Source of the DNA: Flavobacteriales bacterium | GTDB taxonomy: Bacteria > Bacteroidota > Bacteroidia > Flavobacteriales_D > UBA2798 | Reading direction: 5' to 3' | Length of the DNA stretch: 47,703 nucleotides | NCBI GenBank assembly: GCA_019694795.1 | Contig: JAIBBF010000023.1 | Coordinates: forward strand, 1-47,703 | Part shown: piece after piece, positions 35,847-47,703 of the stretch | Numbering within the stretch: the first letter of the stretch is position 1 | How the letters are laid out: each line of letters begins with the position of its first letter | Translations under genes and position numbers: made by a program | The notes under the pieces: model-generated | Databases searched by the model: none | Told to the model about the DNA's origin: nothing | The model's input: the letters and a program-made list of their open reading frames with translations, nothing else

Positions 35847-36926
35847 ATGCAAAATATGGCATTACTGCACAATAAATATGACAAGGCGACCCTGAAAAAA
35901 CGCCTTGAGGCTGAGCCTTTTCATCGCCATACCATTTCGTTTTACCGGTATGTGATTATTAGCGACCCCCATCTGCTGCGCGATGAGCTCTATGCGGAAT
36001 GGAGCAAACTGGGCGTATTAGGAAGAATATATGTGGCCAAAGAAGGAATTAATGCCCAAATGAGTGTTCCCTATCCGAACATGGAACAATTCACCGAAAA
36101 ATTATATGCCCGAAAAGGATTTGAAAACATTCCCTTTAAGCATGCGGTGGATGGCGACGGAGAAGGTTTTTTGAAGCTTACTATTAAAGTAAGAAACAAA
36201 ATTGTGGCCGACGGATTAGACGATAACAGTTTCGATGTTACCAATGTAGGAAAACACCTCAGTGCAAAAGAATTCAATGAAGCACTGGAACTCCCCGATA
36301 CCATTGTGGTAGATATGCGGAATCAATATGAAAGTGAAGTTGGAAAATTTGTAGGAGCAATAACCCCTGATGCAGATACGTTTAAAGAAGAGCTCCCCAT
36401 GGTATTGGAGCAATTAAAAGGACAGGAAAACAAAAAAGTACTGCTCTATTGCACCGGTGGCGTTCGCTGCGAAAAAGCCAGTGCGTTTTTAAAGCACCAC
36501 GGTTTTAACGATGTTAACCAATTACACGGAGGAATTATTGACTATGTACGGCAGATAAAAACTGAAAATTTGCCTTCTAAATTCATTGGCAAAAACTTCG
36601 TTTTCGATAACCGCTTGGGGGAAAGAATTACCTCCGATATCATTGCGCAATGTCACCAATGTGGTGCCCCCTGCGACGACCACACCAATTGCGCCAACGA
36701 TGCTTGTCACCTTTTATTTATTCAATGTCCCTCCTGCAAAGAAAAATATGAAGGATGTTGTACTCCGGGTTGTATGGAAGTATTGCATTTACCCGAAGCA
36801 GAACAGGAAAAGATCAGAAAGGAAATGGGGAAACACGATTCGCTGAGCATGTATAAAAGCAGAATCCGTCCCGATCTAAAAGCCTTGCTTGCAGCAGGAA
36901 AAACCAGCTGGAGAGAGAAGCTCTGA
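35847..36926 (+). CDS. trhO: tRNA uridine(34) hydroxylase TrhO (YceA, rhodanese-related)
   Basis: 359 residues from ATG 35847, chosen because the promoter places the transcript start after the more distal ATGs. N-terminal [30 protein letters not shown], the central rhodanese domain with the active Cys in [17 protein letters not shown], and [37 protein letters not shown] plus a cysteine-rich end match E. coli YceA closely. The enzyme hydroxylates U34 of tRNA to 5-hydroxyuridine with O2. The C-terminal cysteines probably bind zinc. Confidence 0.95.
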
Positions 36927-42221: not shown

Positions 42222-43297
42222 TGCTAAGTTATCCCATCATAACATTCAGTTCTGATTTTAGTATTACTATACTAAATGTCATTTTATTTCTATTGTTATG
42301 GATATTATCCCGACTGGGAAGAAAACATGCGAAAGATTTAGTGCGTCCCTTTTTTAAAAAGGAAAAAATAAAAGTGGGCGACCGTGAACTGGCCACCATC
42401 ACGCTGGTGAAACAATTCATTAATATTCTCGCCATTGTTTTAGCCATTGAAAGTTTATCGGTCAATAATAAAAATGTCGGCTTTACCGAGTTATTGGAAT
42501 TCGATTTGATTCGTATTGACAAATTCCACATTTCGATTTACAATATTTTATTGGTAGCCATTTTTGTGATTAGTGCGCGAATTTTAACCTCCACCATTCG
42601 TATTTGGGTATTGCGAAGCGTAAAAGAAGAACGTGAATCGCAGAACAAAGCACATACGATGATTCGTTTGCTGCAATATTTCATTTATACGCTGTTTATT
42701 GTTCTGGCCATTCAGAGTTTTGGAATCGACATTACCATTCTGATTGCATCGTCTGCTGCTTTATTTGTTGGATTGGGATTAGGTCTGCAAAAAATATTCG
42801 CCGATATCATTTCCGGCTTTATTTTATTGTTTGAAGGAAGTATTAAAATTGGTGACGTAGTAGAAGTTGACAAAATGATGGCCAAAGTGATTGAAATCAA
42901 CATCCGCACTTCCACTGTAAGAACCCGCGATGGAAATTACCTGATAATTCCCAATTCGAAACTAACCTCCGAAAACCTGAACAACTGGTCCTACAACCAA
43001 AAATCCACCCGTTACTTTATTCAAATCTCCACAAAAAATGAAACTGATCCGGAACTAATCCGATCGCTATTATACCAATGTGCATTGCAACATCATTTAA
43101 TCGATAAGAAAAAACCGATCCAGGTATTTCTCGAAGATTTTGGCGATAGCAGCATTAAATTTCAATTGAGTTACTGGACCTCTCACGCCTGGGAAGTACA
43201 GCGCATACAAAGTGATCTTCGTTTTTTAATCGACAAATCACTACGCGCAGAAGGAATTCATCCGGTGGCTTCGAATAAGAAAGGAGATGAGCAATGA
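42221..43297 (+). CDS. MscS-type mechanosensitive channel
   Basis: 358 residues with four membrane segments followed by the MscS pore and beta domain: DITILIASSAALFVGLGLGLQKIFADIISGFILLFEGSIKIGDVVEVD. The Gly/Ala-rich pore helix is followed by the conserved IISG and GDVVE segments; IKVIEINIRTSTVRTRDGNYLIIPN-type residues complete the domain. It releases solutes at hypo-osmotic shock at the inner membrane. Starts in dnaG's stop (TAATG) and ends in the SpoIIE gene's start (ATGA). Confidence 0.95.
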   Translation: MLSYPIITFSSDFSITILNVILFLLLWILSRLGRKHAKDLVRPFFKKEKIKVGDRELATITLVKQFINILAIVLAIESLSVNNKNVGFTELLEFDLIRIDKFHISIYNILLVAIFVISARILTSTIRIWVLRSVKEERESQNKAHTMIRLLQYFIYTLFIVLAIQSFGIDITILIASSAALFVGLGLGLQKIFADIISGFILLFEGSIKIGDVVEVDKMMAKVIEINIRTSTVRTRDGNYLIIPNSKLTSENLNNWSYNQKSTRYFIQISTKNETDPELIRSLLYQCALQHHLIDKKKPIQVFLEDFGDSSIKFQLSYWTSHAWEVQRIQSDLRFLIDKSLRAEGIHPVASNKKGDEQ

Positions 43298-45654
43298 GGT
43301 GGATGAATACTTTACTATTAGCATTATGCTCCCTCTTTGCGTTGGCACAAACAGGAGAAATTGAAAAGCTGGAAAAGAAATTAAAAGCGGCCAAAACAGA
43401 AAAAGAGAAATTAGAAATCAGCGTTACGCTTTCTAAAACCTGGCTGATGGTTGATTTCGACAAAGGAAAAAAAATGGCCGAGACCGGTTATCAGACTGCC
43501 ATAAAAATTAAAAACAAAGATTTAGAAGGTCAGTTTTTAAATGTCCTGGCCATAGTAGAAATGTATTCGGGAAATACCGATTCTGCGTTTGTTCTTTTTA
43601 GAAAAGGGATTTCGACTTCCCGCATTGCAAAAAACAAATTAACCGAAGAAAAGATTTATGCCAACATGGGTAGTCTTTTCGAATTTATAGGAGAATACGA
43701 TAGCGCATTTTATTATTTCGACCGATCATTAAAAATGTCGATCGCCCGAAAGGATACGGTTTACATTGCAGACACCTATAATAGCATTGGATTATCCTAT
43801 TCCAATATTGGACAATTCGATTCTTCCTACACCTACCTTCAGCGATCCTATCAGTTGTACCAGTTGATCGGGAAAAAAGAAGGAATGGCAGATGCAACTT
43901 TTAATATTGCCAACATCTATTTTTACCAGAACAAATTCAATAAATCACTCGACCTGTTTATTGAGGCTCGCGATATTTACGACAGCTTACATGTAGAAAA
44001 TAAAGCTTCGCAAGCAAGGATGAACATTGCACAAATCATGTTCAATTCCAAAAAGTATGAAGATGCACGAAGAGAACTTTATGTCATTCTTCCTGTTTTT
44101 AAACGCTCCGAAAACAACCATGATCTGGGGAATGTCCATTTCATTCTTGCCAACACGTTCGAAGAAGAACAACAATACGATAGTGCCAGCTTCCATTATC
44201 AGAAAGCACAGGAAGCTTTCCGGAAAGCAGAAGATAAAAACGGATTGGGATCGGCATTATCCTCCATGGGTATTATGCTCTTGCACCAGGGGAAAACGGA
44301 TGAAGCAATTGTGTTTTTTAAGGACGCATTAAAAAATAAAATTCAGGCGCAGGACCCCGAAGGAATGGGAGCAATACATAATGGATTATCCGAAGCCTAC
44401 CAACGCAAAAAACAATTTGATTTAGCCTTGTATCATTGTTTGGAAGGAATAGGATACCTGGAAAAAACGGGAGCAAAAGGCGGACTATCTCAAATGTATC
44501 TCCGGGCGGCGGATTTGAGTCAGGAACAAGGAAATTTTGCGAATGCTTACGGTTATATCCGGAAACATTTAAGTCTTAGAGATTCACTGGAAAGTGAAGA
44601 AGACCGAAATGCATTAGCAAAACTGGAAGCGCAATACAACACCAAAGAAGAAAAAAATAAAAACGAATTATTGCGTCAACAAAATCTCGCTAAGGATGCA
44701 GAAATAAAACTGAAAGATGAAGAGGAACATAAAAAGAACATTCTTCTTTATGGTGCATTAACCATTGTTTTGTTATTTGTTGTGTTACTCAGCATTATTA
44801 TCCGCGCCAACCGGCAGCGAAAACGAGCGAATGAAATTCTGGCCATTCGCAACGAAGAAATTATACGTCAAAACACCAACATCCTGCTTCAAAAAGATAT
44901 TATTGAAGAAAAACAAAAAGAAATTACCGATTCCATCAATTATGCAAAACGAATTCAGTTTACGCTTTTAGCACATGATGCATTGATGAAGGAGCACTTG
45001 CCTGAACATTTTGTTTTATTTCTGCCTAAGGACATTGTATCGGGTGATTTTTACTGGGCAACACATACTGAAAATGGAAAATTCTTTATGGCCGTTTGCG
45101 ACAGTACCGGACATGGCGTTCCCGGAGCTTTTATGTCGCTGCTTAATATCTCATTTCTCAATGAGGCCATCAATGAAAAACACATCCACGATCCCGGTAA
45201 AATACTGGATCATGCAAGAGCTAATCTGATTGAACATATTTCACAACAGGGACAAAAAGATGGAATGGATGGCGTTGTTTTTTGTTGGGATAAAAAGAAC
45301 CTGATCTATTCCGCCGCACACAATAATCCAATAATCGTGCGACAGGGAGAAATTATTGAACTAGCCGCAGATAAAATGCCGGTTGGAATGGGCGAACGCG
45401 AAGATCCGTTTAGCACTCATTCACCCGAATTGAAAAAGGGCGACATGATTTATTTCTTTACCGATGGATTTGCCGATCAGTTTGGTGGACCAAAAGGGAA
45501 AAAGTTCAAATACTCCAATTTCTATCAGTTACTCGCTTCCAATGCAGAACTCTCCTGCACCGAACAAAGCCAAAAACTGGAGCATGAATTTAAGTCCTGG
45601 AAAGGTGACCTGGAACAAATTGATGATGTTTGTGTACTCGGAATGAGAATATAA
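43294..45654 (+). CDS. TPR-containing SpoIIE-type PP2C phosphatase
   Basis: 786 residues. Signal peptide (NTLLLALCSLFALAQ), then about eight tetratricopeptide repeats to residue 440 (IYANMGSLFEFIGEYDSAFYYF, TYNSIGLSYSNIGQFDSSYTYL, ..), coiled-coil, one membrane segment (ILLYGALTIVLLFVVLLSIII), another coiled-coil and a C-terminal SpoIIE domain with DIVSGDFYWAT, AVCDSTGHGVPGAFMS and DDVCVLGMRI. These carry the metal-binding Asps. It is probably a transmembrane sensor whose phosphatase acts on an anti-anti-sigma-type protein, none of which is in the window. Overlaps the channel gene by 4 bp. Confidence 0.93.
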   Translation: MRWMNTLLLALCSLFALAQTGEIEKLEKKLKAAKTEKEKLEISVTLSKTWLMVDFDKGKKMAETGYQTAIKIKNKDLEGQFLNVLAIVEMYSGNTDSAFVLFRKGISTSRIAKNKLTEEKIYANMGSLFEFIGEYDSAFYYFDRSLKMSIARKDTVYIADTYNSIGLSYSNIGQFDSSYTYLQRSYQLYQLIGKKEGMADATFNIANIYFYQNKFNKSLDLFIEARDIYDSLHVENKASQARMNIAQIMFNSKKYEDARRELYVILPVFKRSENNHDLGNVHFILANTFEEEQQYDSASFHYQKAQEAFRKAEDKNGLGSALSSMGIMLLHQGKTDEAIVFFKDALKNKIQAQDPEGMGAIHNGLSEAYQRKKQFDLALYHCLEGIGYLEKTGAKGGLSQMYLRAADLSQEQGNFANAYGYIRKHLSLRDSLESEEDRNALAKLEAQYNTKEEKNKNELLRQQNLAKDAEIKLKDEEEHKKNILLYGALTIVLLFVVLLSIIIRANRQRKRANEILAIRNEEIIRQNTNILLQKDIIEEKQKEITDSINYAKRIQFTLLAHDALMKEHLPEHFVLFLPKDIVSGDFYWATHTENGKFFMAVCDSTGHGVPGAFMSLLNISFLNEAINEKHIHDPGKILDHARANLIEHISQQGQKDGMDGVVFCWDKKNLIYSAAHNNPIIVRQGEIIELAADKMPVGMGEREDPFSTHSPELKKGDMIYFFTDGFADQFGGPKGKKFKYSNFYQLLASNAELSCTEQSQKLEHEFKSWKGDLEQIDDVCVLGMRI

Positions 45655-45694: not shown

Positions 45695-45725
45695 CTGTAA
45701 CAAGTGACTCACTTGTTCGTCCTAC
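45695..45725 (+). promoter_or_regulatory. ECF-type promoter of the sigma gene
   Basis: CTGTAACA (45695-45702), a 15-nt spacer and CGTCCTAC (45718-45725). The GTAAC and CGTC elements are of the ECF type. Spacer and elements match the promoter at 47516. The spacer here also holds a 7-bp inverted repeat ACAAGTG-ACT-CACTTGT that the other copy lacks. Confidence 0.75.
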
Positions 45726-45740
45726 CTTTAACGTTGCAAA

Positions 45741-46226
45741 ATGACTACTTCGGAATACAATAAAAGTGTAGATCAGTTTTCGGACAATCTCTATCGCTTC
45801 GCCCTCAAGAATCTGAGAGATGATGATAAGGCGAAAGATATTGTTCAGGAAACGTTTATGCGCTTGTGGACGAAAGTAGAAGATGTTTCTTTTGAAAAGG
45901 TAAAGTCCTATCTCTTCACAAGCTGTTACCATGCGATCGTGGATTTAAGTCGCCGCGAAAAAAAGCAAGGTGAATACAATGAGACCACCGTTAGGAGAAT
46001 GGGTCACAATGAACAGTATTCCGATCTAAAAGAAATATTAAATGAAGCCTTAACCCGATTACCGGAAATTCAGCGTTCGGTAATTATGCTTCGCGATTAT
46101 GAAGGATACAGTTATGAGGAGATTGGTGAGATTACCGGATTAAATGAATCGCAGGTAAAAGTTTACATCTTCAGAGCAAGAAAATTTTTAAAGGATTACA
46201 TCGGATCCATGGAAAGTGTGATATAA
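45741..46226 (+). CDS. ECF-family RNA polymerase sigma factor
   Basis: 161 residues. Region 2 has YRFALKNLRDDDKAKDIVQETFMRLW and the region 2.4-like VKSYLFTSCYHAIVDLSRRE; region 4 is LTRLPEIQRSVIMLRDYEGYSYEEIGEITGLNESQVKVYIFRARKFL, a clear helix-turn-helix. Directs transcription in response to a signal held by the membrane protein encoded just after it (start codon directly after its stop). It is likely self-regulated, since an ECF-type promoter precedes the gene. Confidence 0.95.
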   Translation: MTTSEYNKSVDQFSDNLYRFALKNLRDDDKAKDIVQETFMRLWTKVEDVSFEKVKSYLFTSCYHAIVDLSRREKKQGEYNETTVRRMGHNEQYSDLKEILNEALTRLPEIQRSVIMLRDYEGYSYEEIGEITGLNESQVKVYIFRARKFLKDYIGSMESVI

Positions 46227-47507
46227 ATGGAAATCAACAGAAACAATTACGAAGCTTGGTTCCTCGATTATATAGAGGGAAATCTTTCTACGGAAAGAGA
46301 AGCAATGCTTTTGTTGTTTCTGGAGCATAATCCGGATTTAAAACAGGAACTCGAAGGCTTTGAAATGATTTCACTGAGCGATGATCAACCTTCATTTGAA
46401 TTAAAAGATACCCTGAAAAAAACCGATGAAAAAACACTGGAACGTTTTGAATCTTTAAGCATCGGCTCCCTTGAAAATATAAATTCGGCTGAAGAAAGCG
46501 ATGAGTTAAACCGCATGCTCAAAGAAATGCCGGCACTGGAAAAGGAACTTCTTCAATTTTATAAAACAAAAATCCAGGCTGAATCAGTTTCTCTTGATGA
46601 AAAAGAATTGTATTTAAAAAATACATCCTTATTTCAATCCGCCGCTTCCAATCGCGATTTATTAATTATTGGTTTTCTCGAGGGGTGGTTTACAGAATCG
46701 GAAAACAAAAAAATTGAAAAACACTGTAAAGAAAACACTGAGCTCGGTGCATTACTTAGTGCTTATTCCAAAACCAAACTATCGAAAGAAGAAGTAGTTT
46801 TTTCAGATAAAAATTCGCTGTATAAAAAAGAAGGAAAAATTGTTGTATTCCAGCGGTCCACCCTTTACAGAATTTTTGCCGCTGCTGCGGTGGTTACCTT
46901 AATCTTCACACTGTGGCCGAAGCAGGATGAATATAAAAATGAACTTTCTGCTCAAAAGAAAAACAACACCATTCCAGCGGAAGACAACAGAGACTCCCTC
47001 CCAATGAATACCACTGAATGGTCGACCGAAAACAATCAGTTTGCCGAAAGCAATAGTATTCGTTCTAAACAGAATCCGATCAATAAACAACAGCATGTTG
47101 CCGTTAATGAAAATCCGATTCAGGAAATTGCCAACGAAGACCGGAAAGAATTGAAGGATACAATTATTACTACACATTCACCACAGGAAAATGTTGCCCA
47201 ACAAAATAATCCGAAAGACAGTGCTGCGGTAAACGTGCAACAAACAACCGAAGATCTGGCCCTCCAAAACAATGCGAATTCAAACGATGAGTTCATGAGT
47301 GTTGGAGAATACCTGAAGAAAAAAACGAATGAAAAATTATTCGGTAAAGAAGAGGTGAATAAAAACGATGTTCAACAAAGCATCAGCAATACCGCCTCTA
47401 AAATTACAGGAACCAATGTTGCCTTTGCTTCAAATGCGGGCGACGAATACAAAGAGACCTATTTCGAGATCGGAAAATTCTCTTTTCAGCGAAAAACAAA
47501 AAAATAA
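46227..47507 (+). CDS. Membrane anti-sigma-like protein with three internal repeats
   Basis: 426 residues, starting directly after the sigma factor stop codon. The N-terminal 200 residues hold three divergent copies of one repeat (about 10-66, 74-133, 144-201), for example WFLDYIEGNLST..NPDLKQEL, then LNRMLKEMPALEKELLQFYKTK and IIGFLEGWFTES..NTELGALLSAYSKTK. One membrane segment follows (LYRIFAAAAVVTLIFTLW, 213-230), then an Asn/Gln/Lys-rich extracytoplasmic stretch and a short ordered end. No zinc-binding anti-sigma motif is seen. Role as the anti-sigma is inferred from position and topology. Confidence 0.7.
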   Translation: MEINRNNYEAWFLDYIEGNLSTEREAMLLLFLEHNPDLKQELEGFEMISLSDDQPSFELKDTLKKTDEKTLERFESLSIGSLENINSAEESDELNRMLKEMPALEKELLQFYKTKIQAESVSLDEKELYLKNTSLFQSAASNRDLLIIGFLEGWFTESENKKIEKHCKENTELGALLSAYSKTKLSKEEVVFSDKNSLYKKEGKIVVFQRSTLYRIFAAAAVVTLIFTLWPKQDEYKNELSAQKKNNTIPAEDNRDSLPMNTTEWSTENNQFAESNSIRSKQNPINKQQHVAVNENPIQEIANEDRKELKDTIITTHSPQENVAQQNNPKDSAAVNVQQTTEDLALQNNANSNDEFMSVGEYLKKKTNEKLFGKEEVNKNDVQQSISNTASKITGTNVAFASNAGDEYKETYFEIGKFSFQRKTKK

Positions 47508-47515
47508 TTTTTTGG

Positions 47516-47546
47516 CTGTAACATCTCAGGGACTTGTTCGTCCTAC
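47516..47546 (+). promoter_or_regulatory. ECF-type promoter of the gene at 47612
   Basis: CTGTAACA (47516-47523), a 15-nt spacer and CGTCCTAC (47539-47546), with ACTTGTT in the spacer exactly as in the promoter at 45695. It lies 65 nt before the next start codon. Confidence 0.75.
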
Positions 47547-47611: not shown

Positions 47612-47703
47612 ATGAAAACGAAAAACACATTTGCCACTTTAGTTATGAGCTGTCTGAGTGTGATGGCAATGGCACAGGAAGTACCAACTCCACCCGAACC
47701 GCC
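47612..47703 (+). CDS. Start of a secreted protein gene, 3' end missing
   Basis: First 30 codons only. A signal peptide (MKTKNTFATLVMSCLSVMAMAQ) is followed by EVPTPPEP, a Pro-rich start. The gene runs off the window. The ECF-type promoter upstream makes it a probable target of the sigma factor at 45741. Function cannot be stated from this part. Confidence 0.6.
   Translation, partial: MKTKNTFATLVMSCLSVMAMAQEVPTPPEP

Follow-up and report, generated by a model that had tools for sequence, protein, structure and literature searches.

Twin ECF-type promoter sites at a sigma factor gene and a predicted outer-membrane barrel gene in a Flavobacteriales bacterium and its relatives

Related systems and the layout of the locus

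Sigma-E and AlgU, with RseA and MucA, are autoregulated ECF sigma factors with a membrane anti-sigma factor and envelope targets. The locus described here would have a similar circuit plan and one of its units superposes on MucA, but its anti-sigma-like protein carries several units in tandem, whereas MucA and RseA have one anti-sigma domain each. The closest known system is Dma (dual membrane-spanning anti-sigma) with its ECF21-type Das sigma factor, from Bacteroides thetaiotaomicron, with a similar pair in Phocaeicola vulgatus. As outlined in two reports, Dma joins an anti-sigma unit, a transmembrane (TM) helix, a long linker and a beta-barrel in one chain, and its own operon is among the most induced genes (PMC13088901, PMC9308784). 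To go by these outlines, our locus shares with Dma a Bacteroidota ECF sigma factor beside an anti-sigma protein (cytoplasmic domain, TM, disordered tether) and an outer-membrane barrel. It differs in that the barrel has a gene to itself, which carries a promoter copy and is sometimes unlinked in relatives, and in that the anti-sigma protein has several tandem units and lacks a C-terminal barrel.

Two further comparisons place the locus among Bacteroidota systems. Transcript-start mapping in Flavobacterium psychrophilum is described as defining a CGT-box class of ECF promoters that includes a sigma/anti-sigma pair (PMC9723704). The SM6 promoters and the THC0290_1774/1773 operon resemble the window in their CGT-box -10 and sigma/anti-sigma arrangement, there with mapped starts; unlike the window, the published list as given there holds T9SS parts and Band-7 proteins, and TGTAAC and GTAAC as words are absent from the main text (PMC9723704). 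A survey of ECF factors, as summarised by its authors, found a class I anti-sigma domain close to only 6% of those from Bacteroidetes, compared with 32% of the whole set, and raised the possibility of other anti-sigma classes (PMC7406223).

By "the window" we mean the whole stretch of DNA analysed, 47,703 nucleotides. This stretch makes up a complete contig of a 3.45-Mb assembly, and gene 3, the last gene in Table 1, is therefore cut at its start. The sigma factor has the ECF (group IV) sigma-70 layout of regions 2 and 4 only in about 160-200 aa: Sigma70_r2 (41.6 bits) and Sigma70_r4_2 (66.4 bits) score over their cut-offs and TIGR02937 gives 91.8 bits over a cut-off of 42.9. It scores below the cut-off of 130 for NF058625 (sigma_PG0214 / GFO_1088), at 129.6 bits (128.7 in the genome search). 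That family is like the window in having TGTAAC and CGTC upstream in 21 of 27 over-cut-off loci (9 or 10 of 10 bases, spacers of 14-17 allowed) and unlike it in that an anti-sigma unit lies downstream in 1 of 25 loci, with a weak match (E 6e-3).

Table 1. Features of the locus, in positions of the window
Feature	Position	Strand	Description
TPR protein with SpoIIE-type phosphatase domain	43294-45654		just 5' of site 1
Site 1	45695..45725	+	ECF-type promoter, CTGTAACA-N15-CGTCCTAC; ends 15 bases 5' of sigma start codon
Site 1 boxes	CTGTAACA 45695-45702; CGTCCTAC 45718-45725	+	15 bases between boxes; read directly
ECF sigma factor	45741..46226	+	161 aa, regions 2 and 4 only; ATG at 45741
Anti-sigma-like membrane protein	46227..47507	+	426 aa; three tandem units, one TM, disordered tether, C-terminal alpha/beta domain
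Anti-sigma-like unit 1	46245..46430	+	aa 7-68
Anti-sigma-like unit 2	46446..46628	+	aa 74-134
Anti-sigma-like unit 3	46650..46835	+	aa 142-203
Predicted single transmembrane helix	46857..46913	+	aa 211-229
Site 2	47516..47546	+	matching promoter; 8 bases past anti-sigma stop, 65 bases before gene 3 ATG
Site 2 boxes	CTGTAACA 47516-47523; CGTCCTAC 47539-47546	+	15 bases between boxes; read directly
Gene 3 (start)	47612..47703	+	signal peptide, predicted outer-membrane beta-barrel (OMP_b-brl_2 in relatives); ATG at 47612; first 30 codons only, cut by contig end

The circuit that we propose is that the sigma factor would drive, from site 1, the operon that encodes it and its anti-sigma partner and, from site 2, the separate barrel gene, the most constant other member of its putative regulon; the anti-sigma-like protein would keep the sigma factor bound by its cytoplasmic helical units, and a signal from the envelope would free it. 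We consider this whole circuit very probable.

The promoter pair and its conservation

The preliminary description of this sequence had reported the twin sites with equal spacing and a common ACTTGTT, and direct reading finds both where it had placed them, with ACTTGTT directly 5' of CGTC each time. Within the window, GTAACA-N13-17-CGTC has 3 matches against 0.19 expected, a number that none of 100 shuffles reaches; the third match is on the minus strand at 36219-36241, with a spacer of 13.

Conservation was assessed in 60 whole genomes, 41 of which, our own included, hold a close sigma ortholog (E 2.2e-45 or better). TGTAAC-N16/17-CGTC stands 36-86 bases before the sigma start in all 41 of these order orthologs at 9 or more of 10 bases, 35 of them at 10/10, while equal 85-base windows of the same loci gave 11 of 4949 at 9/10 or better and 1 at 10/10. 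The corresponding background for the site-2 scan, in 285-base windows, was 26 of 1428, some of these overlapping true sites. The search of named genomes yielded 80 loci, mostly from Bacteroidales and Flavobacteriales MAGs and also from Carboxylicivirga, Marinifilum, Labilibaculum, Ancylomarina and Labilibacter, and site 1 was present in 78 of the 79 loci that could be scored. Judged from these comparisons, the window pair is a real pair of predicted promoters that is conserved in relatives, and the retention of site 1 predicts the self-activation of the sigma gene that had been proposed at the outset.

The element was derived over 119 site-1 and 79 site-2 sequences. Its constant letters are GTAAC, CGTC, a T 5' of GTAAC and an A three bases past CGTC, although only place and flanking positions count as independent here, since the sequences were chosen by similarity to the consensus. 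Most site-1 sequences have T directly after GTAAC; the GTAACA first described is a local form in which the final A is dispensable. The spacer in relatives is 15 or 16, counted after TGTAACN. Both sites have the same spacer length in 36 of 39 order genomes and in 22 of 40 named loci, the latter being at chance level, and we therefore rejected spacer agreement as proof that the sites co-evolved. The ACTTGTT that had been listed as a shared feature before the -10 does not hold up in relatives, where it is not generally kept (G002 and G012 have it in common with the window, at site 1 only), and is treated as incidental to the element. The TPR-SpoIIE gene was likewise dropped as a part of the module because just 2 of 44 further loci, with upstream flanks of about 0.2-1.4 kb, have it beside the sigma gene.

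The barrel gene and other candidate targets

Although only the start of gene 3 lies in the window, its nature can be assessed from relatives, and the C-terminal piece of a gene-3-type gene opens another contig of the same assembly (G000:C102:1-123). Three of five scanned homologs pass the Pfam gathering score for OMP_b-brl_2 (PF13568), and the predicted model of one homolog (L201) matches the OmpA, NspA and PagL barrels with Z of 13.6-13.2. Among the site-2 genes of L198, L212, L227, L240, L261, L264 and L267 are some of 482-544 aa with an extra N-terminal region before the barrel, which we take to resemble a head-GIN (DUF2807-like) domain; in L198 such a head-GIN-like domain is encoded as a separate gene.

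Site 2 is present in 25 of 41 order genomes and in 41 of 69 named loci, those with no room or no clear anti-sigma frame having been left out of the latter count. The 63 genes that follow a site 2 fall in one homology cluster, and two more site-2 loci gave none. Of 110 loci, 62 have both site 2 and an adjacent, co-oriented barrel gene and 39 have neither, with the gene only in 5 and the site only in 4, two of which stop at a contig end. The site is thus found in 62 of the 67 loci with an adjacent barrel gene and in 4 of the 43 without. The five barrel-adjacent loci that lack site 2, the order genomes G013 and G040 among them, count against the proposed circuit.

The link becomes most apparent where the barrel gene has moved away. 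In 14 order genomes the sigma locus has no barrel gene and a close homolog lies elsewhere in the genome; the site stands upstream of this unlinked gene in 14 of 14 cases, 12 of them at 10/10, while weaker barrel paralogs have it in 0 of 12. Taken together, the barrel gene is under a sigma-type promoter in 39 of 41 order genomes. The 19 relatives in which no close sigma ortholog was detected hold 17 barrel homologs, with the site only in G019, where the contig begins inside an apparent anti-sigma gene. None of 28 further barrel homologs outside the order has the site; L328, listed first with them, lies within the order. The second site, as far as these comparisons reach, follows the barrel gene and not its genomic place, and this tracking, linked or unlinked, is the strongest evidence that both sites belong to one regulon. 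Self-activation together with an obligate barrel target is strongly supported by these sequence patterns, in keeping with the local target that the preliminary description had predicted. In another family of the class (L331, L334, L335, L339 and L342), an ECF sigma gene lies near a barrel homolog that does not have the promoter, which suggests that the pairing of sigma and barrel genes may be older than the promoter sequence.

Other targets were sought across our 3.45-Mb genome. TGTAACA-N15-CGTCCTA has 3 exact matches, at sites 1 and 2 and at C87:2051-2079, the last some 10 bases ahead of a gene for an S41-type peptidase. Two more matches with one mismatch precede a TonB-receptor-like gene and a gene for a T9SS-sorted protein, the latter followed by a FadL-like gene. 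The S41-type gene was rejected as a conserved regulon member, as no close homolog was found in 23 relatives. The shorter GTAACA-N15-CGTC had been offered as a probe for the regulon elsewhere in the genome and fails in this role. With spacers of 13-17 it is not enriched, at 15 matches genome-wide against 51 for the reversed-pattern control, and with up to three mismatches the whole genome gave 170 against 453; it is a poor probe, and we discarded it, because the reversed control exceeds the matches.

TGTAAC-N16/17-CGTC-N-Y-A is, on these counts, the better regulon probe, with 17 matches against 4 for the reversed control over three genomes and eight against two in our own. It adds three matches: one precedes an M61-type peptidase gene, one falls within a different gene that runs on the opposite strand, and one is near a selD-like gene whose start is ambiguous. 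The relative G001 has seven matches, one inside a gene and one ambiguous; among the others, one precedes a TonB-type gene homologous to ours (44% identity) and one a gene for a second T9SS-sorted protein that is similar in its C-terminal 77 residues. The expectation that envelope genes elsewhere would be targets fits the S41- and M61-type peptidases and the TonB-receptor-like and T9SS-sorted/FadL-type genes.

The partner protein and a possible split sensor

The anti-sigma-like protein matches no Pfam or NCBIfam family. NCBIfam anti-sigma models matched 5 of 26 relatives weakly and did not match the window protein, and a PDB sequence search with the anti-sigma profile gave no credible match. 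Its repeated make-up was found with an HMM of the N-terminal part of relatives' partners, about 62 residues long. This detected a later copy in 87 of 111 partner proteins (89 of 111 with tails alone); as controls, 111 shuffled tails, 111 reversed tails and 109 periplasmic parts gave no copy at all. With an iterated second HMM, most partners have two units before the TM, the window protein three, one protein four and a few one. Exactly one TM is predicted in 36 of the 41 order partners. In the predicted structure of the window protein, three three-helix units stand apart from one another, modelled with high confidence, and are followed by the membrane helix, a disordered tether at aa 247-357 (pLDDT under 50) and a small folded C-terminal end at aa 359-425 with two helices and three strands.

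Residues 70-117 of the unit 2 model superpose on the cytoplasmic domain of MucA in the AlgU-MucA complex (Z 5.3, rmsd 1.7, 48 residues). The MucA chain is the best of 980 and the only match at Z of at least 5, although a Z of 5.3 can reflect a common small-helical arrangement, and a Foldseek search of the model returned nothing at E 0.001. Given that small helical domains score low, we read the match as support and not as proof. The partner probably restrains the sigma factor. The units may not be equivalent: conservation is highest in unit 1, with a mean identity of 0.43 or 0.36 compared with 0.25-0.30 in the units after it, and these may bind differently or not at all.

Set beside Dma, the protein has an N-terminal cytoplasmic anti-sigma-like domain with a predicted sigma-binding role, supported by the MucA-like fold and by an HMM that also finds the unit in the Dma-like paralog described next, and a single TM helix followed by a long disordered tether; the same-chain C-terminal beta-barrel is absent, with no Pfam barrel and a non-barrel C-terminal model. 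The genome also holds a Dma-like paralog, C98 (L147, G000:C98; also L148, L149 and L150), in which a sigma gene is accompanied by a 616-aa fusion protein of one unit of the window anti-sigma family (2e-15), a TM helix, a long linker and a PorP_SprF barrel (7.3e-23). The fusion gene is followed by a separate PorP/SprF-looking gene, and the locus has a promoter-like TGTAAC with a different -10, of the GGTTAC type.

By analogy, the locus may encode a Dma that is split in two and multi-headed, which would extend the proposed circuit. The barrel would supply the half of the sensor that sits in the outer membrane and would dock on the periplasmic end of the anti-sigma protein, so that sigma factor, anti-sigma protein and barrel would work as a single signalling unit, with feedback through the site-2 promoter. 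This joint reading is possible and we hold it tentatively. In its favor, C98 has all of these parts in one chain, the barrel gene nearly always stays under the sigma-type promoter in the order, and the window anti-sigma protein ends in a tether and a small folded domain. Against it, the barrels are of different Pfam families (PF13568 for gene 3, PF11751 for C98), and the gene-3 HMM does not match the C98 barrel, for which reason we rejected direct homology of the two. The more specific form, a two-piece Dma whose sensor consists of a separate barrel and an anti-sigma protein with 2-4 units on one anchor, both made from the twin promoters under the sigma factor, we regard as doubtful. In a literature searched mostly by title and abstract, no earlier description of a tandem-unit anti-sigma protein or a split Dma was found.

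Specificity among ECF factors and implications

Several ECF genes of our genome share a TGTAAC box, combined with a similar or a different -10, so that cross-reading by another ECF factor is possible. Among the 20 ECF genes, only the window sigma gene has a 10/10 site, and three of the other 19, on C17, C12 and C26, reach 9/10, which also counts against the proposed circuit. Those on C17 and C12 combine TGTAAC with CGTTTAG, and the one on C26 (C26:21199) has AGTAAC-N16-CGTCTCAC. A TGTAAC-like box lies upstream of the ECF genes of L301, L305, L307, L311 and L312, whose -10 boxes differ (CGTTTAG, TTGTTTTAC, GGTTAC and CGTCTCAC). It looks as if the -10 sequence sets ECF specificity in this genome. 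Downstream of one further ECF sigma gene (L318, G000:C120) lies a short open frame that encodes a single anti-sigma unit.

These shared boxes give some room to the alternative that another ECF factor, or several with overlapping specificity, reads both sites and that the window sigma gene is only a target; the F. psychrophilum study, as far as its account goes, also allows several ECF factors to share the CGT-box class (PMC9723704). We consider this very unlikely, since the site travels with orthologs of the window sigma factor in nearly every locus of both surveys, barrel homologs lack it where no sigma ortholog was found, G019 apart, and no other ECF gene of the genome has the full site. That the two sites are alike by chance, which the lack of enrichment of the short pattern in the genome might favor, is practically impossible and already refuted by their fixed-place conservation in dozens of diverged genomes and their retention at unlinked barrels.

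The anti-sigma family is widespread and, as neither Pfam nor NCBIfam has a model that matches the window protein, could fill part of the class I gap in Bacteroidetes. If several units per anchor do bind, one anti-sigma protein would titrate several sigma molecules and give the positive loop a sharp threshold. The split arrangement would make the reading of the outer membrane by Dma-type systems testable with separate parts, and the promoter pair, together with the test at unlinked barrels, offers a ready regulon probe across a little-studied order.
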